Assembly (NCBI RefSeq): GCF_026210795.1
Contig: NC_089441.1
Coordinates: forward strand, 744,001 to 808,000
Source: Rhizophagus irregularis
Taxonomy: Eukaryota > Glomeromycota > Glomeromycetes > Glomerales > Glomeraceae
Direction of reading: 5' to 3'
DNA length: 64,000 nt
Below, one piece after another: positions 5,936 through 39,075 of this stretch (position 1 is the stretch's first letter; the number at the start of each line of letters is the position of its first letter). A model generated the notes under the pieces. That model made no database searches. It was not told where the DNA came from and worked only from the letters and a program-made list of their open reading frames with translations. The position numbers were made by a program, and so were the translations under genes.

Positions 5936-8900
5936 CTAATTGCTTTGAGTGTTATTCAACGCTTTGCTCCAGTCAACTAAATATAATAAAGTATGTAATA
6001 TGAGTTCAATATCAAATCTTAATAAGTAAGGAAAGTAAAGGATTATAAACTTACTGTGGAAATATGAAGAAGAATGAACATATTCTAAAGATTCGGCACT
6101 AGCTTGCAATTCCAAAGTTAAATTATCATTATCTATAATGAACAGATACTATCAATATAAATAAAGACAAAAATTAAATGTAATAGGAACATAAATAAAT
6201 ACCTTCGGATAACTTATTTGTAACATTATTTCCAAAACCCATTCTTTCAAATTCACCCAATATTTCATTAATACTTGATCTTTGTTCAGGTTCTTGATTC
6301 CAACAATTTTTATAGAGATTTTCATATTCTTTAGGTGTACCAGGAATTGTGACCTCACGAGCACCATTACTAATAGAAACAGCAAGTGCAATTTTATTGT
6401 CATTATCTTTAAATGGAGGATATCCACTAGAAATTTCCCACATTAATACACCAAAACTATAGATATCTGAAGGTTCAGCATATGGAAAATTTGGATCTAT
6501 AAAACGTTTTGGTTCCATATAAGCAACAACACCAAAATTGCCAACATAGGCTGTTGAAGATTGATTATTTTGATTTTTTGAAATACCAAAATCTGTAATT
6601 TTAGCATTATTTTCATGAATAACTATATTCTTAGAATGCTAAAAGAAAAAAAATTGCATAAATACATTATTATTATTACTAGTACTTATGATATTAAACA
6701 ATAAATACTAATAGTACTTACAAGATCTCTATGTAAAATATTTTCATTATGTAAGTAATTTAATCCATCTGCAATTTGAAATGCTAATTTTTTCTTGTCA
6801 TTCCATGTTAAATTCTTAAAATTATTTTTAAGATGATTTTGAAGATCTCCACCATTAGCATATTGCATAATAAGAAGATATTCATTTGTTTTTGGGTCTA
6901 AAAAGGAAAAATTTATGAGAAATTAAAAAAAACAATGCAAAAAAATAAAAAATATATTTCAATTACCTAAACTAATACCAAAATAACGAATAATTCTATC
7001 ACTATAATTAAGGTGCAGGTGCATTTTTAGTTCATGAATAAATGCATCTAACAAATCATTCTTAATATAAGTTGCATTAGCCAATTTTTTACAAATAACA
7101 TAACTATTAGTTTTAGTCCAAATAGCTTTTGATATTCTTCCAAATCCTCCTGTATCAAATGATACTTCATTTTTTAGTTCATTATAAGATATGAATTTAA
7201 CTTTTTCATAATTCAAAGCTTTTTCAATCCATTCATTTGCATTTAAACTTCCCTTTTCTGCTTTTTTAAAGCAATAAATAGACTCGTCAATCTTATTAAT
7301 GAACTCAGGTTTATATTGTGCATTTCTAAATCCTTGTTGAGCTGCTTTTTGATACCAATAAGAGGCTTTAACTTCATCTTTTTCGATACCAATTCCTACT
7401 TCATAGCAAACACCTAAATTAAATTGTGCTTCTTTATCTCCATTTTCTGCTGCTTTTTGATATAAATCAAAGGCTTTTTCTAAATCCTTTTTTGTTCCTA
7501 TTCCATTTTCATAACAAATGGCTAAATTATTCATTGCAATTCCATTACCATTTTTTACTGCTTTTTGATACCAATAAAAGGCTTTTTCTAAATTCTTTTC
7601 TGTTCCTTCTCCATTTTCATAACATATGGCTAAATAAAACATTGCAAATTTATTATAATTTTTTGCTGCTTTCTGATACCAATGAAAGGCTTTTTCTAAA
7701 TTCTTTTCTATTCCTTTTCCATATTTATAATACCCGGCTAACCTATCCATTAAAACTTCATTATCATTTTCTGCTGCTTTTTGACACCAATAAAATGCTT
7801 TTTCTAAATTCTTTTCTGTTCCCTTTCCCTTTTCATAGCATTTGACTATTTCAAATATTGCACCTTCAATACTGCTTTCTGCAGCTTTTTGGTACCAATA
7901 AAAGGTTTTTTCCAAATTCTTTTCTGTTCCTTCTCCATATTTATAGCAATTGGCTAAATTAAACATTGCATCTTCATTACCATATTCTACTGCTTTTTGG
8001 TACAAATGAAAGGCTTTTTCTAAATTCTTTTCTGTTCCTTCTCCATATTTATAACAATTGGCTAAATTAAACATTGCATCTTCATTACCATTTTCTGCTG
8101 CTTTTTGACACCAATAAAATGCTTTTTCTAAATTCTTTTCTGTTCCTTCTCCATTATAATAAAGTAAAGACAAATTATACATTGCTCCTTTAATATCATT
8201 TTCTGTTGCTTTTTGGTACCAATAAAAGGCTTTTTCTAAATTCTTTTCTGTTCCTTCTCCATACCTATAGCAATTGGCTAAATTAAACATTGCATCTTCA
8301 TTACCATTTTCTGCTGCTTTTTGATACCAATAAAAGGTTTTTTCTAAATTCTTTAATGTTCCTTCTCCAATTGCATAATACAAGGCTAACCTATTCATTG
8401 CATTTTCATTACCATTTTCTGCTGCTTTGTGACACCAATAAAATGCTTTTTCTAAATTCTTTTCTGTTTCTTCTCCATTTTCATAACACATGGCTAAATG
8501 AAACATTGCAAATTTATTACCATTTTCTGCTGCTTTTTGGTACCAATAAAAAGCTTTTTCTAAATTCTTTCCTGTTCCTTCTCCATATTTATAATAATTG
8601 GCTAAATTAAACATTGAATCTTTATTACCATTATCTGCTGATTTTTGGTACCAATGAAAGGCTTTTTCTAAATTCTTTTCTGTTCCTTCTCCATTATAAT
8701 AACAATTGGCTAAATTAAACATTGCATCTTCATTACCATTTTCTGCTGATTTTTGGTACCAATGAAAGGCTTTTTCTAAATTCTTTAATGTTCCTTCTCC
8801 AATTACATAATACAAGGCTAACTTATTCATTGCATTTTCATTACCATTTTCTGCTGTTTTTTGACACCAATAGAATGCTTTTTCTAAATTCTTTTCTGTT

Positions 8901-11110
8901 CCTTCTCCATTATAATAAAGCAAGGACAAATTATATATTGCATCTTTAATACCATTTTCTGCTGCTTTTTGATACAAATGAAAGGCTTTTTCTAAATTCT
9001 TTTCTACTCCCTTTCCATTTTCATAACAAATGGCTAAACTATTCATTGCATTTTTATTACCATTTTTTACTGCTTTTTGATACCAATAAAAGGCTTTTTC
9101 TAAATTCTTTTCTGTTCCTTTTCCATTTTCATAACATATGGCTAAATGAAACATTGCAAATTTATTACCATTTTCTGCTGCTTTTTGGAACCAATAAAAT
9201 GCTGTTTCTAAATTCTTTTCTGTTTCTTCTCAATTTTCATAATATATAGCTAAATGATATATTGCAAATTTATTACCATTTTCTGCTGCTTTTTGATACC
9301 AATAAAAGGCATTTTCTAAATTCTTTTCTGTTCCTTCTCCATATTTATAGCAATTGGCTAAATTAAACATTGCATCTTCATTACCATTTTCTGCTGATTT
9401 TTGGTACCAATGAAAGGTTTTTTCTAAATTCTTTTCTGTTCCTTCTCCAATTGCATAATACAAGGCTAACCTATTCATTGCATCTTCATTACCATTTTCT
9501 GCTGCTTTGTGACACCAATAAAATGCTTTTTCTAAATTCTTTTCTGTTTCTTCTCCATTTTCATAACATATGGCTAAATGAAACATTGCAAATTTATTAC
9601 CATTTTCTGCTGCTTTTTGGTACCAATAAAAGGTTTTTTCTAAATTCTTTTCTGTTCCTTCTCCATATTTATAACAATTGGCTAAATGAAACATTGCATC
9701 TTCATTACCATTTTCTGCTGCTTTTTGATACCAATAAAAGGCATTTTCTAAATTCTTTTCTGTTTTTTCTCCATATTTATAACAACTGGCTAAATTAAAC
9801 ATTGCATCTTTATTACCATTTTCTGCTGATTTTTGGTACCAATGAAAGGCTTTTTCTAAATTCTTTAATGTTCCTTCTCCAATTTCATAATACAAGGCTA
9901 ACCTATTCATTGCATTTTCATTACCATTTTCTGCTGCTTTTTGACACCAATAAAATGCCATTTCTAAATTCTTTTCTGTTTCTTCTTGATTTTCATAATA
10001 TATAGCTAAATGATATATTGCAAATTTATTACCATTTTCTGCTGCTTTTTGGTACCAATAAAAAGCTTTTTCTAAATTCTTTTCTGTTTCTTCTCCATAT
10101 TTATAACAATTGGCTAAATTAAACATTGCATCTTTATTACCATTTTCTGCTGCTTTTTGACACCAATAAAATGCTTTTTTTAAATTCTTTTCTGTTCCTT
10201 TTCCCTTTTTATAACAAATGGCTAAGTTATCCATTGCATCTTTATTACCATTTTTTACTGCTTTCTCATACCAATGAAAGGCTTCTTCTAAATTCTTTTC
10301 TATTCCTTCTCCATTTTCATAACATATGGCTAAATTTAACATTGCACTTTCAATGCCATTTTCTGCTGCTTTTTGGTACCAATAAAAAGCTTTTTCTAAA
10401 TTCTTTTTTGTTCCTTCTCCAATATAATAACATAAAGCTAAATAAAGCATTGCAGATTTATTGCCATTTTTTACTGCTTTTTGATAACAATGAAAAGCTT
10501 GTTTTAAATTCTTTTCCGTTCCTTCTCCATTTTTATAACATATGGCTAAATTATACATTTCATCTTCATTACCATTATCTGCTGCTTTTTGATACCAATA
10601 ATAGGCTTTTTCTAAATTCTTTTCTGTTTCTTCTCCATTATAATAACATGCAGCTAAACCATTCATTGCTATAATATGATTTTTTCCTGCTGCTTTTTGA
10701 TACCAATAAAAGGCTTTGGCTTTATCACTTTTGGTACCAATTCCATTTTTATAAAATATGGCTAAATTTAACATTGCATTTTCATTACCATTTTCTGCTG
10801 CTTTGTGACACCAATAAAATGCTTTTTCTAAATTCTTTTCTGTTTCTTCTCCATTTTCATAACATATGGCTAAATGAAACATTGCAAATTTATTACCATT
10901 TTCTGCTGCTTTTTGATACCAATAAAAGGCTTTTTCAAAATTTTTTTCTGTTCCCTTTCCATTTTTATAACATATGGCTAAATTATTCATTGCATCTTCA
11001 TTCCCATTTTTTGCTGCTTTTTGATTCTGATTAAATAATTTAATTTCATTTTTTTTGCTATCAGTTACATTTTTCTTAGTACTTAAAAAAAAAAAAGGTT
11101 TAATTTTCAT
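5936..11110 (-). CDS. Sel1-repeat array fused to a TKL-type protein kinase (five exons, one in-frame TGA)
   Basis: Exons on the minus strand: 11110-6967, 6897-6722, 6638-6203, 6132-6055 and 5976-5936. All phases match and the model is 1625 codons. Residues 30-1253 are 34 uninterrupted 36-residue Sel1-like units (consensus AMFNLANCY..GEGTEKNLEKAFYWYQKAAENGN), a solenoid fold used for protein binding. A kinase domain follows from about residue 1310: G-loop TGGFGRIS, V-I-C-K-K lysine, alpha-C H-E-L, catalytic HRDLHSKN, DFG, and DIYSFGVLMWE. The key catalytic residues are present. Codon 627 (9230-9232) is TGA where sister units have GGA or CAA, which would truncate the protein before the kinase; it may be a null allele, an assembly error or readthrough. 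The start is the first ATG before the array; an upstream exon cannot be excluded. Confidence 0.85.
7352..11023 (-). repeat. Coding tandem repeat, 34 x 108 bp (Sel1 units)
   Basis: The interval is exactly 3672 bp, or 34 units of 108 bp, with no indel between units. Blocks of several units recur in the same order. A unit with N-K-F-A-M/I..ENGEETEKN is followed by N-E-N/D-A-M-N-R-L-A-L-Y-Y..IGEGT and then N-E/K-D-A-M-F-N-L-A in at least three places (near units 10-12, 14-16 and 24-26). This suggests multi-unit duplication as well as single-unit slippage. The complementary strand has long spurious open frames caused by the repeat. Confidence 0.9.
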
Positions 11111-20767: not shown

Positions 20768-23700
20768 TGGCCACTTATTAAGAAGTATAGTTTGAGTGAA
20801 AGTTATTATACAAGAGATTCAAATAAAGTAATTTCTTTAAAATGTTTGCATAATTTAAAGGAATCCATTGATTCTTTAATAAGTGAGGTATGAAATTTCT
20901 TTAAATATTTAAATACTTTTCTTAATTAGTATATTTACTATTTTCTTTTATTTATAATTAGGCTAAAAAATATCCAACAGAACATAATAAATTTCAAGCA
21001 TTATATGGAATATCTCAAAATCCCAATACAGTGGATTATATTTTGGTTCAAAATAATTTTATGAACTTAACAAGTTGGACCAGTGGAAATGAAAAAATTG
21101 ATGATTTTATTCAAGAAAGGCAATTAAAATTAAAATTTGATAACTATGATGATATAATCTTTGAATGGATACCATACAATCAGTTTAATGAAATTAAAGA
21201 AACAGAAAAAAATAAACTTATTACATTATATTCAGCAATATGGAAGGATGGTCCACTTATTAAGAATCAAAGTTTGGGTGTAAGTTACCATACAAGAGAT
21301 TCAAATAAAGTAGTTTCATTAAAATGTTTGCATAATTTAAAAGAATCCATTGATTCCTTAATAAATGAGGTATGAATTTCTTTAAATACTTAAATACTCG
21401 TTTTTAATTAGTATACTGTATTTACTAGTATTTCTTTTATTTATAATTAGGCTAAAAAATATCCAACAAAACATAATGCATTTCAAGCATTATATGGAAT
21501 ATCTCAAAATCCAGGTGCAGAGGATTATATTTTGGTTCAAAATAATTATTTATGGATAAGTGGAAATAAAAAAATTGATGATTTCATTCAAGAAAGTCAA
21601 TTAAAAATTAATAACTATAATGATATAGTACTTGAATGGATACCATACAATCAGTTTAATGAAATTAAAGAAATAGGCAAAAATAAACTTATAACAGTAT
21701 ATTCAGCAATATGGAAGGGTGGTCCATTACACAGAAAGAATCAGCAAGATAAAAATTATACCAGAGATTCAAATAAAGTAGTTTCTTTAAAATGTTTGCA
21801 TAATTTAAAGGAATCCATTGATTCCTTAATGAATGAAGTATGAAATTTCCTTAAATATTTAAATACTCTTTCTTAATTAGTATATTTACTATTTCTTTTG
21901 TTTATAATTAGGCTAAAAAATATCCAACAGAACATAATAAATTTCAAGCATTATATGGAATATCTCAAAATCCCAATATAATGGATTATATTTTGGTTCA
22001 AAATAATTTTATGAACTTAACAAGTTGGACCAGTGGAAATGAAAAAATTGATGATTTTATTCAAGAAAGGCAATTAAAATTAAGATTTGATAACTATGAT
22101 GATATAGTGCTTGAATGGATACCATACAATCAGTTTAATGAAATTAAAGAGACAGAAAAAAATAAACTTATTACATTATATTCAGCAATATGGAAGGATG
22201 GACCATTGTACTATTATAATAATAAGTATAAATATACAAGAGATTCAAATAAAGAAGTTGCTTTAAAATATTTGCATGATCCACAAAATTCTGTTGACTC
22301 CCTAATAAATGAGGTATGAAATTTCTTTAAATATTTAAATACTTTCTTTATAATTAGTATATTTACAATTTCTCTTATTTATAATTAGGCTGAAAAATAT
22401 TCAACAAAATATAAAGCATTTCAAGCATTATATGGAATATCTAAAAATCCAGATACAGAGCAATATATTTTTGTTCAAAAGAATTCTATAAACTTGACAA
22501 ATTGGATAAGTGGAAATGAAAAAATTGATGACTTTATTCAGGAAATGCAATTAAAATTCAATGACAAACATTATACAATATTTGAATGGATACCTTACAA
22601 TCAACTTAGCAAAATTAAGGAAATAGGTAAAAATGGACCTATTACTATATATTCAGCAATATGGAAGGATGGACCATTGTATTGTAATAATAAGTATAAA
22701 TATACAAGAGATTCAAATAAAGAAGTTGCTTTAAAATATTTGCATGATTCACAAAATTCTGTTGACTCTCTAATAAATGAGGTATAACATTATATTTTAA
22801 TAGTTATTTTTAATATTTACTATATTATATTTATCTCTTTTATTTATATTTAGGTGAAAAAATATTTGTCAAAAAAAATACTTGACAGAGTAATTTGTAA
22901 TATATATGGTATATCTCAAAATCCAAATACAAAAAATTATATTTTAATTCTGGCATGGGCAAGTGGAAATGAAAAAATTGATGATCTTATTCAAGAAATA
23001 CAATTACAAATAAATAATCATAGTGATAAAGTATTTGAATGGATATCATATAATCAGTTTAATAATATTAAGGAAATAGATAAAGGTGGATTTGCTACAG
23101 TATATTCTGCAAATTGGAAAGATGGTCCATTAGAATATAATACTGCTAACGAAGTATATAAAAGGAATCCGAATAGAGTAATTGCTTTAAAATGCTTGCA
23201 TAATTCACAGAATATTACCAATAAATTTTTAAATGAGGTATGAAATTTCTTTGATAATTGAAGTTCATTTTAGTAATAAATATGTTAGTTTAAGCATAAT
23301 ATAGTAATCATTATTTATTATAAATACATTTAACAGGTCAAAGAATACTCAATAAATAAAAGAAGTAATATTCTTAATGTACATGGAATATCTCAAAATC
23401 CAGATACAAAAGAATATATTATGGTTCTCCAATATGCAAAAGAAGGCAATTTTAATCATTGGATAAATAAAAACTATGAATATTTTAATTGGAAAAATAA
23501 ATTATCTGCATTGCTTGATATTATTAATGGTCTTAAAGAGATTCATCAAAAAAATATAGTTCATTGTGATATTCATACAGGAAATATATTATTTTTAAAT
23601 AATATAAATGTTTTTGGTAATTGCATATCAATTTCAGACATGGGATTATGTGGAGAAGTTGGTAATATAGATGAAACAAAAATTTATGGAGTTATGCCTT

Positions 23701-35480: not shown

Positions 35481-38400
35481 ATGGAAGTAATGGATCAACG
35501 TATTGATGAAGGTAATCATACAGAATATAAAATTAGAATTATCCTGTCAAAATTTTTAAACAATTTTGCAAATATGAACTAACTATATTATATAAAAATT
35601 ATATTAAATAACTTAGCCCGTAAGTTAATAGGTTATCTCATAATTAAATAAAATTAAATAATAACAGATAATGAAATTAATTATTATTATTATATTCTAA
35701 ATTCATTTAATGATTAATAATACTATAGTTTGTAAGTTATTAGTTATTTAAATTTTAGCTTTTTACTTTATTTATTTTACATAATATTCAAATAACTAAA
35801 TACTTTGTTTAAATAACTAATTAATTATATTGCAGCTGGTAAGTTATAATACTTAAGGATATTATATTTAATTTATTTATTTATTAACATCTAATATTTT
35901 AATATAATTTAACTAATTATATTCTTAATTTAAATAAAATAGATTGTAAGTGATATATTAATTTATAGTAAATACTTTTCTATTATATTTATACCTAACT
36001 AATTAATAATTGATTATACTACAGGGTGTAAGTTATATGATGTTTATAGTTCTATTATTCAAGCTAACTAAATTCTTTATTTAAAAAATTATTTTTGCAA
36101 TTTCTTTTAGTTGGTAAGTTATTTAAAATTTAATTCTATTATTAGTACTTATTGTTATAATATTTACATATAATTTAAACTAAATACTTTTAAATTAACT
36201 AAATTCTTTATTTAAAAAATTTCTTTTAGTTGGTAAGTTATTTATTTAATTATTGTTATAATAATATTTACATATAATTTAAACTAACTAAATTCTTTAT
36301 TTAAAAATTATTTAAATAATATAGTGAGTAAGTTATTTATTTAATTCACTTATTGTTATAATATTTACATATAATTTAAACTAACTAAATTCTTTATTTA
36401 AAAAAATTCTTTTAGTTGGTAAGTTATTTATTTAATTCTATTATTACTTATTGTTATAATATTTACATATAATTTAAACTAACTAAATTCTTTATTCAAA
36501 AATTATTTAAATAATATAGGGAGTAAGTTATTTATTTAATTCACTTATTGTTATAATATTTACATATAATTTAAACTAACTAAATTCTTTATTTAAAAAA
36601 ATTCTTTTAGTTGGTAAGTTATTTATTTAATTCTATTATTACTTATTGTTATAATATTTACATATAATTTAAACTAACTGAATTCTTTATTTGATAGATT
36701 GTAAGTTATAAGTTATTTATTTAATTCTATTATTACTTATTGTTATAATATATACATATAATTTAAACTAACTAAATTCTTTATTTAAAAATTATTTAAA
36801 TAATATAGGGGGTAAGTTATTTATTTAATTCCATTATTACTTATTGTTATAGTATTTACATATAATTTAAACTAACTAAATTCTTTATTTAAAAATTATT
36901 TAAATAATATAGGGGGTAAGTTATTTATTTAATTCCATTATTACTTATTGTTATAGTATTTACATATAATTTAAACTAACTAAATTCTTTATTTAAAAAT
37001 TATTTAAATAATATAGGGAGTAAGTTATTTATTTATTTAATTCTATTATTACTTATTGTTATAATATTTACATATAATTTAAACTAACTAAATTCTTTAT
37101 TTAAAAATTTCTTTTAGTTGGTAAGCTATTTATTTAATTTTATTATTACTTATTGTTATAATATTTACATATAATTTAAACCAACTAAATCCTTTATTTA
37201 AAAAATTATTTAAATAATATAGAGGGTAAGTTATTTATTTAATTCTATTATTACTCATTGTTAAAATATTTATATAATTTAAACTAACTAATTTCTTTAT
37301 TTAAAAAATTTCTTTTAGTTGGTAAGTTAAATATTTAATTCTATTATTACTTATTGTTATAATATTTATAATTTAAACTAACTAATTTCTTTATTTAAAA
37401 AAATTTCTTTTAGTTGGTAAGTTATTTAAAATTTAATTCTATTATTAACTTATTGTTATAATATTTATATATAATTTAAACTAAATAAATTCTTTATTTA
37501 AAAAATTATTAATAATATAGCTTGTAAGTTATTTGTTATTTCTATTGTTATATATTTTATATAATATTTATTTATTAATTGTATTTTTTCTATTACTTTA
37601 GTTGGTAAGTTATGAATATAGCTTATTGTTATAAATATTTACACAAAAACTAAGGCATACATTATCCTAAATTCCTATTTAAATTTTAGAGTAAGTGTTA
37701 ATTTTAATTTTAGATTTTAGTGTAAATTTTATTATATAATTTTAATCATTTAAATTTGTAGATTTGGAAAAAGTGGAAATAAAATCATAGATGAATTTAT
37801 TCTTGAAAAAAAATTAAGTTGGATACCTTATAATAAATTTAAAAATGTTGAATATCTTATTGAAGGAGGATTTGGTACTATATACAAAGCTATTTGGTTA
37901 AGAAATAATGAAGATAATAAAGAAGTAATTCTTAAATGCCATAATAATTTAAATGAAAATTTAAATGAATTTTTAAATGAAGTATGATACTATATTATTT
38001 ACTTTTTTTAATTTAAATTATAATTTATTTGTATTAATATATTATTATTTTTTATAGTGGAAATATCATGAAAGTTGTTCATATTTATATGAAATGATTC
38101 ATTTTTATGGATTTACAAAAAATCCAGATACTTTGAAATATATGGCAGTAATTGATTATGCAAACAAAGGTAATTTAAGAGGAAACTTAACAGGAATAGT
38201 TAAAAATGGTTGGGGCCAAAAATTATACATGTTGTATGAAATTATTTCTGGACTTAATACTATACATAAACAAAATCTTATTCATTGTGATTTTCATGAT
38301 GGCAATATTTTAAATCATAATGATGAAGAGAATAAAGCAGACAAAATTTATATTAGTGATTTAGGATTATGTCAACCTGTAAAATCATTTTTGAAAGAGT

Positions 38401-39075
38401 ATAAGATTTATGGTGTTGTACCATTTATGGCACCTGAAGTTTTAAGAGGCAAACCTTATACTCCAGCTAGTGATATATATAGTTTTTCTATGATTATGTG
38501 GGAATTTACATCTGGAATACCACCATTTAATAATAGAGCACATGATATTCAACTTAGCTTAAGTATTTGTGAAGGTGAACGTCCTGAAATAATTGAAAAT
38601 ACTCCACAATGCTTTGTAGATTTGATGAAAAAATGTTGGGATGAAGATCCATTAAAAAGGCCATCTTCTAAAGAAGTGTTCAATATTATTAAAGAATGGA
38701 TTTCTCTTCCAGATAATGTGAAAGTTAAAGATATTAATGAAGAATTAAAATGCAATATTATGGAATTTATAAATGCACCAATTGGGCATAACAATCTTGC
38801 TACTGAATCTCACTCACAAGCTTGCTATACAAGTCGCTTACTTAATTTTACTAGTAAACAATTGAATGAAATTCTTGAAAGTAAAAATTCACAAACTAGT
38901 GTACAAGTGAGTGAAATGCTAGTAAGCGAAGATTTGGATGAATGCATATTTAATTTAAAGAAATTAGGTATGTAAAATGTATATAATATAGCTATTATAG
39001 TATAAAATAAATTAATTTACAAGTTAATTACTTTTATTTATTTAATATTTAGATATCAAAACAAATGAAAATTAA
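35481..39075 (+). CDS. TKL-type kinase gene with a 5' array of 3-nt microexon units
   Basis: Proposed exons: 35481-35511 (or from 35463, which is in frame and follows an acceptor), 21 three-nt units and one 1-nt unit (35617-37690), then 37762-37981, 38058-38967 and 39053-39075. The kinase part is secure: S-G-N-K-I-I-D-E-F-I lead-in, G-loop EGGFGTIY, V-I-L-K lysine, HCDFHDGN, a DLG motif (for DFG), M-A-P-E, and DIYSFSMIMWE. The tail encodes HSQACYTSRLLN, like the 20.8-24.2 kb gene. Joining 35511 directly to 37762 gives the wrong phase and a TAG after 9 codons. Including all 22 micro-units restores the kinase frame with no stop. The microexon reading is inferred from splice-site pattern and phase only. 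Confidence 0.7.
35617..37690 (+). repeat. Array of 21 intron-like units, each AG-NNN-GTAAG, plus one AG-A-GTAAGT
   Basis: Three-nt spacers start at 35617, 35729, 35836, 35943, 36025, 36111, 36230, 36325, 36416, 36520, 36611, 36698, 36809, 36913, 37017, 37118, 37223, 37319, 37414, 37521 and 37602. A 1-nt spacer is at 37690. Every spacer is preceded by AG (TTTTAG, ATATAG, CAG) and followed by GTAAGT (GTAAGC once). Most units also have a branch-site-like AACTAAC about 25-50 nt before the AG. Periods range from 81 to 119 bp. Units 6-19 are near copies; units 1-5 and 20-22 are strongly diverged yet keep the same AG-3-GTAAGT geometry. The spacer is TTG eight times; the others vary. Confidence 0.85.

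Follow-up and report, generated by a model that had tools for sequence, protein, structure and literature searches.

How is a locus to be read in which an intron acceptor is followed, time after time, by exactly three bases and then by an intron donor? The question is raised by Rhizophagus irregularis, in a 64,000-nucleotide stretch of DNA analysed at its full length (C13:744001-808000, G000; hereafter the window) against a searched genome of 146,748,485 bases in 32 contigs. An earlier note had claimed a tandem array of AG-3-GTAAG units ending at 37690, with intron bodies of 78-116 nt and branch-like motifs, and had proposed serial one-codon microexons whose gain or loss would be neutral to the frame. 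The array was confirmed, with 21 three-base stretches between AG and GTAAG at 35617-37604 on the + strand. AG-N3-GTAAGT matched 21 times on that strand, 20 of them inside the array, and spacing 3 gave no match on the - strand; every other AG/GTAAGT spacing from 0 to 15 gave at most three matches on either strand. Donor-to-donor distances in the array are 81-119 nt, leaving introns of 78-116 nt, and the claimed intron length thus held for the introns between three-base units. The claimed end held only in part, as the 22nd unit, at 37690 (TTTTAG-A-GTAAGT), has a spacing of 1 and leaves one base rather than three.

The predicted gene, all on the + strand, starts with a short exon at 35481-35511 (ATG GAA GTA ATG GAT CAA CGT ATT GAT GAA G) that ends one base into a codon before the donor GTAATC at 35512. 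Its microexons, assigned on the AG-N3-GTAAG geometry, are in order CCC (35617-35619), TTT (35729-35731), CTG (35836-35838), ATT (35943-35945), GGT (36025-36027), TTG (36111-36113), TTG (36230-36232), TGA (36325-36327), TTG (36416-36418), GGA (36520-36522), TTG (36611-36613), ATT (36698-36700), GGG (36809-36811), GGG (36913-36915), GGA (37017-37019), TTG (37118-37120, with the donor GTAAGC at 37121), AGG (37223-37225), TTG (37319-37321), TTG (37414-37416), CTT (37521-37523) and TTG (37602-37604). A one-base exon, A, follows at 37690, between the AG at 37688-37689 and the donor GTAAGT at 37691. Alternating with these exons are 23 predicted introns (35512-37761, from the sequence): one before the first microexon, 20 between three-base exons and two flanking the one-base exon. 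The first large kinase exon (37762-37981; A TTT GGA AAA AGT GGA ...) is entered two bases into a codon, and the last (38058-38975) ends with the stop TAA at 38973-38975.

The predicted product, which reads MEVMDQRIDE-ALSDWFVVIGIDWGGIEVVAF-EFGKSGN... followed by the kinase, has 410 residues and matches PF07714 at E 1e-36; the stretch ALSDWFVVIGIDWGGIEVVAFEFGK is a possible array-encoded peptide spanning the microexons. The microexons account for 64 of about 1,230 coding nucleotides. The eighth would be a stop if TGA were taken as a whole codon, and gives none because the frame of the flanking exons splits each codon over two exons (G|TG + A|TT). For the window, a reading in which each exon is a whole codon was ruled out by this TGA and by the flanking phases. 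The term 'one-codon microexon' in the earlier note accordingly needs correction: the introns lie after the first codon base, and the exon trinucleotides are therefore not themselves codons, and the last exon is a single nucleotide. Elsewhere in the window, a 108-bp tandem repeat of 33 copies with strong negative GC skew lies at 7414-11025 and resembles Sel1-type repeats on the - strand, and a tandem repeat of period 477 with 4.4 copies at 20807-22865 possibly consists of repeated exon-intron blocks.

The geometry is not peculiar to this locus. Genome-wide, AGNNNGTAAGT occurred 9,494 times (4,674 + 4,820), against 5,237 (2,719 + 2,518) for the reversed pattern. A genome search for AG-NNN-GTAAGT in series, which the earlier note had proposed as a check, was run at distances of 86-116 nt and returned 3,984 adjacent pairs, with 54 in the control. 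The same count at a spacing of 2, 4 or 6 between AG and GTAAGT returned 98 (control 24), 61 (control 15) and 16 (control 22) pairs, respectively, and of the pairs inspected at spacings 2 and 4, most belonged to other tandem repeats, each with its own fixed sequence. A chance origin of the geometry is ruled out by these other spacings and the controls. The number of arrays was approached through 100 of the 524 matches to a stricter pattern, with clusters tallied by eye; about 38 clusters fell on C1-C5, and extrapolation from these gives an estimate of roughly 200 arrays in the genome. A different tandem family, with GTAAGT about every 110 bp in fixed surrounding sequence, was seen on many contigs (e.g. 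C8:5274703-5276042); its exons are probably tens of bases long, and it likely represents an ordinary exon and intron duplicated in tandem. One region, L029 (C13:247500-252500), was found by the spacing-6 search and has no spacing-3 chain; it is possibly an array with longer exons.

For closer study we sampled 22 loci from the pattern listings (L001-L022), which together with the window make 23. In these, 29 chains with 976 distinct units were parsed, and chains of at least five units were confined to one strand in each locus. Most of the loci are kinases; L002, which encodes a coiled coil, and L014 are not, as far as they could be read, and the repeat unit of L002 appears unrelated to those of the other loci. 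If the usual definition of a microexon is applied (at most 30 nt, with GT-AG introns on both sides), it is met by the 21 window units and by the 976 units of the 23 loci.

The reading frame provides a test of whether such units are coding. The ATG exon predicts a frame with introns after the first codon base, and this frame was followed through 28 chains from 22 loci (all but L002). No stop was found in 831 distinct adjacent codons, as opposed to 137 stops in the other border-spanning frame and 38 in the predicted frame when the order of neighbours was reversed. Shuffling the exon order within arrays 2,000 times produced 20-54 stops (mean 35.5; 878 neighbour positions scored, gaps included), and the 364 distinct exon neighbour pairs contained none, compared with 22 after reversal. 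The whole-codon frame has few stops as well (two in 908 exons, one of them the TGA of the window), so the contrast is strongest against the other frame. An ATG exon was recognised upstream of the array in 19 of the 23 loci, and all 19 end one base into a codon before GT; the acidic second exon keeps the phase of the ATG exon where this was computed (L003, L004 and L012). L002 is open only in a different frame (no stops in 68 codons; three and five in the others), which by itself is weak evidence, 1.59 stops being expected by shuffling and P(0) being 0.038. The start codon of L002 would be split AT|G over its first two microexons, and the frame of its array reaches the coiled-coil exon, in frame, by way of a 26-nt exon.

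Validation on six newly fetched regions gave the same picture. One of these, L029, gave no chain; the five chains from the others comprised 130 codons with no stop in the predicted frame, 20 in the next frame and four upon reversal, with one region, L028, free of stops in both border-spanning frames. Two kinase genes picked by protein search rather than by the array pattern both contained arrays, with no stop in 32 codons, seven in the next frame and none upon reversal. Pooled, these seven further arrays contain 162 codons without a stop. Retention of the array introns would bring a stop in 823 of 832 cases.

The transition into the downstream exon could be tested in 17 kinase loci out of 23, since L002 and L014 are other genes and in L003, L008, L016 and L017 the kinase exon lay outside the stretch or was not recognised. 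A one-base exon followed the last three-base unit in all 17 (A in 16, C in one), and the kinase exon was in frame only with this exon included. If either the array or the one-base exon was omitted, the kinase fell out of frame in 17 of 17 loci, and skipping the array led to a stop within 45 codons in 16, the exception being L012. The downstream exon of the non-kinase locus L014 is entered in the phase given by 3n bases, and no one-base exon was seen there. Four genes were built as far as the kinase (the window, L004, L012 and L020), and in all of them translation is open from the ATG into the kinase.

These results bear on a rival explanation, that the array is a minisatellite that grew within one long intron from the ends of the intron itself, and is removed whole with its inner sites idle. 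The units are indeed tandem repeats with similar introns (33,403 unit pairs passed the similarity cut), and an outermost donor and acceptor exist. Removal as one intron, however, loses the frame in all 17 loci tested, 16 of which then reach a stop within 45 codons, and idle sites would be expected neither to keep a spacing of 3 over diverged arrays nor to leave 831 codons free of stops in the frame that the ATG exon predicts. A minisatellite removed whole without effect on the frame is ruled out by the phase test (17 of 17 loci), and we regard the minisatellite explanation in general as very improbable. A second possibility is that the arrays are transcribed and perhaps spliced, with the upstream exon and the array belonging to non-coding or dead copies, and that any kinase starts at an internal ATG. 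At least one copy does look worn: the array of L001 is open, yet a straight reading of its second kinase exon runs into stops, and the copy may therefore be dead. Against this, the frame holds from the ATG, across the array and into the kinase, in four genes (the window gene, L004, L012 and L020), the window kinase is open to its end, and the non-kinase arrays of L002 and L014 also keep an open frame. This alternative, too, has very little likelihood.

What the sequence statistics show is the geometry, its genome-wide excess, a single open frame, the fit to the flanking phases and the need for a one-base exon. That the units are serial one-codon microexons, spliced in and translated, is very likely in our view (about 0.92); splicing is inferred here, as there are no RNA data. 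The proposal of the earlier note is supported by frame, phase and spacing and by the required one-base exon.

The donor is GTAAGT in 799 of the 976 units, followed by GTGAGT (39), GTAAAT (37), GTATGT (36) and GTAAGC (27), with GC or other donors in a few. One GC donor was noted at position 1301 of L001 (AG-AAG-GCAAGT); ahead of such a donor, AAG is the exon end that best matches U1. The branch-like motifs claimed earlier also held: CTRAY was present in 646 of 900 array introns of the 23 loci, compared with 217 of 900 with shuffled bodies, at a median distance of 36 nt from the 3' site, leaving 254 introns without the motif. A search for units by their flanks found that 913 of 926 centres of the right geometry (11 nt) kept AG and GT/GC; ten had lost the AG and three the donor, and six further centres had longer exons that remained in frame. 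This search used the flanks of intact units, and 781 more centres were unclassified matches to simple sequence. One L002 unit has lost its AG.

Some irregularities remain within the arrays. Neighbouring units lay more than 150 nt apart in 49 places, and at three of 48 such junctions a stop arises when the gap is treated as a single intron. The stop disappears in L005 and L011 once a unit with a weaker donor inside the gap is used; a unit of this kind was looked for inside the L016 gap with a stop, and none was found. With at most three donor-like candidates listed per gap, 11 were GTRAGT. Exons of 6 or 9 nt accommodate seven of the 11, two of which, both in L009, are ambiguous (6, 4 or 2); the remaining four do not fit (a spacing of 1 in L010, a spacing of 2 in L016, and no near AG in L002 and L016). 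At about 3690-3750 of L001, a short palindromic insertion (..CACTGGGGTGATGATTACCCCAGTG..) lies in an intron flanking a microexon, and a similar stretch is present in two gaps of L013; small insertions are thus likely tolerated in array introns.

A further alternative concerns the use of the microexons rather than their existence, namely that they are mainly cassette exons, of which variable subsets are skipped to give many protein lengths per gene. Because of the array phases, any subset of the three-base exons could be skipped in frame, provided that the one-base exon stays. The strong and uniform donors (GTAAGT, 799/976) fit constitutive inclusion instead, and we consider predominant cassette use unlikely.

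To compare the peptides encoded by the arrays, nineteen chains were selected by an early TGG, and the W itself is therefore not evidence; it is preceded by D or N in 18 of the 19 and followed by F, Y, W or L in all of them, with L three codons before it in 15 of the 17 readable chains. Among the 17 kinase loci of the entry test, 14 have F as the final residue encoded by the array, and the mid-array peptide varies between loci in both length and sequence. No Pfam family at or above its curated cut-off was found in five array-containing products with the kinase domain cut off. About 70 microexons of L002 (676-8440) encode a proline-rich stretch (PPTIPPPPPLPGRLP) ahead of the coiled coil. The array peptides of L016 and L027 are hydrophobic and membrane-like ahead of a kinase exon, located just downstream of L016 (C4:823585) and inside L027 (C21:742051), and a membrane-anchored kinase is possible for both; L027 also has 6-nt spacings near the end of its array.

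The divergence of the units was analysed by pairing best-matching units on their introns only (two L005 units were counted twice). In 350 pairs with at least 95% intron identity, the introns differed by 2.7% and the three exon bases by 30, 22 and 45%; in 744 pairs with at least 80% identity, the corresponding values were 6.2% and 35, 26 and 49%. Among the exon positions, the third codon base differed least between best-matching units. Such an excess of exon over intron divergence is expected neither of an idle repeat nor of an ordinary conserved exon. Relative to the intron rate, synonymous and non-synonymous changes were raised 2.0- and 6.0-fold at 95% identity or more, 1.6- and 2.6-fold at 90-95%, and 1.7- and 2.2-fold at 80-95% (with every pair entered in both directions). 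Third-base C/T differences numbered 3 in 174, the intron rate being 0.0179; their use as a measure of neutral synonymous change was rejected, as C is so rare at that base that even unrelated codons would differ in only 6.3%. In the start block of 19 chains, the exon bases differed by 0.215, 0.206 and 0.332 and the introns by 0.148, so that the exons were not more conserved there either.

Two recent in-frame duplications of ten-unit blocks were observed in L011 (units 34-43 vs 51-60, and 45-54 vs 61-70), doubling a peptide stretch with 3 of 30 and 0 of 30 exon bases different. Similarly, L007 and L022 share eight units with no exon differences at 6.8% intron divergence. Clear segmental duplicates thus keep their codons, and a mutation hot spot is therefore unlikely. 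Many introns are near-identical, and fast codon change can for this reason not be separated from the keeping of codons during homogenisation of the introns. Both diversifying selection and homogenised introns around retained codons are possible sources of the exon excess.

The same numbers touch on the origin of the arrays. One could suppose that near-identical, Introner-like introns were inserted between the codons of an older, uninterrupted coding sequence, a view of their origin that is set against tandem duplication of units made of an intron plus a codon, and that is compatible with splicing. Introns that differ by 2.7% around exon bases that differ by 30, 22 and 45% are what would be seen with unlike codons between copies of an intron. 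The exon differences are nevertheless well below the 71, 56 and 75% computed by hand from composition for unrelated exons, adjacent identical exons are enriched (114 of 949 vs 83.8), and segmental duplications, as in L011, carry an intron along with its codon. We also know of no mechanism by which introns would be inserted at every codon in a single phase, and an insertion origin appears unlikely. An intronless or array-free homologue with a contiguous microexon peptide was not found in a limited search of the same genome. The search with the L002 product gave no match at all, its own downstream exon included, and therefore shows nothing; that with the L014 product returned the downstream exon of L014 itself together with two weak places on C25. 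With the L012 product, scoring covered 150 of 3,356 candidates, and in about 103 of these 150 the match begins at residues 73-78, at the kinase exon. Some ten start earlier and stay open; both of the two inspected (C25:1658292 and C28:1530151) are genes with arrays, and the extra match length at C25:1658292 is read-through of the last intron.

The reading of the units as serial microexons suggests a model of how the window gene may work. The array would form the coding front part of a protein-kinase gene laid out as a short ATG exon, 21 three-base exons, one one-base exon and then the kinase exons, each microexon sitting between ordinary short GT-AG introns and each codon consisting of the last base of one microexon and the first two of the next. 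The spliceosome would remove the array introns singly, each step leaving one codon's worth of exon, presumably in 5' to 3' order; this order is the simplest because U1 and the 3'-site factors could not both fit at a three-base exon. The near-consensus GTAAGT donors would compensate for the missing exon. With less confidence, the tandem units may allow codons to be gained, lost or swapped in frame, leaving the segment from the conserved start to the kinase to evolve as a variable peptide; the function of this peptide is inferred only from its position before the kinase and its variability.

The nearest known things are single exons of one or three nucleotides, the RPS24 microexons and the micro-exon genes (MEGs) of schistosomes. 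MEGs have many short symmetric exons of 6-36 bp that make up about 80% of the coding region and can be dropped without loss of frame (PMC5825161). A coding region split into many short symmetric exons is common to both, but the R. irregularis arrays consist of three-base exons (one base at the end) arranged as tandem repeats whose introns resemble each other, and in this fungus they occupy an internal part of kinase and other genes; the MEG definition (symmetric 6-36 bp exons over ~80% of the coding region) is not met by the window gene. Spliceosomal exons of this size are known in isolation, with one base in Arabidopsis APC11, plant VPS55 and Fusarium CYP621A, the last needed for phase and seen in reads, and 3 bp in Drosophila homothorax (PMC12940212, PMC8831610, PMC4674806, PMC7392893). 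Such exons occur singly or as two adjacent ones (5 and 12 nt in rice; PMC8831610), not in series of tens. RPS24, a ribosomal protein gene, has a run of three microexons between exons 4 and 6 (PMC12686416, PMC11162997, both of which contain the term '3-bp exon'); this is a run of small exons in one conserved gene, whereas 20-80 tandem units are found in many R. irregularis genes.

Introners are near-identical introns with many copies per genome, some with 3-9 bp target duplications (PMC9860276, PMC4457414). Near-identical intron copies in many genes are also seen here, with similar introns within and across loci, but Introners insert into many genes with a nucleosome-linker bias and not in tandem at every codon (PMC9860276); 'Mucoromycota' and 'Glomero' are absent from the main text of that paper. 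In recursive (ratchet) splicing and stwintrons, an acceptor and a donor adjoin and removal is stepwise. These leave no exon or nest introns, whereas the arrays would retain three codon bases per step. A published precedent for such arrays was not found in the open-licence PMC literature searched, in line with the lack of a serial precedent stated by the earlier note, and 'microexon' is absent from the main text of Manley 2023 (PMC10234402). To our knowledge there is no precedent for a serial arrangement of such microexons, nor is an exon-intron structure known to be denser than dozens of exons of 1-3 nt in a row, in many genes.

If the serial microexons are indeed spliced and translated, the arrays raise the question of how exons smaller than the footprint of the spliceosome are defined by it. 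In a model arbuscular mycorrhizal fungus, the front part of a large kinase family may then escape standard annotation and read mapping. Protein evolution by single codons, with introns serving as recombination handles, could also be tested on the arrays. A bolder reading, to which we give slightly less than even odds, is that they constitute a codon-cassette system, where each codon of the variable segment resides on its own intron unit of roughly 100 bp, recombination between introns inserts, deletes or swaps single residues in frame, and splicing may add further variation. Were this true, some two hundred arrays, by extrapolation, would supply the fungus with a fast-diversifying repertoire of kinases and other proteins, for example for the recognition of self or partners.
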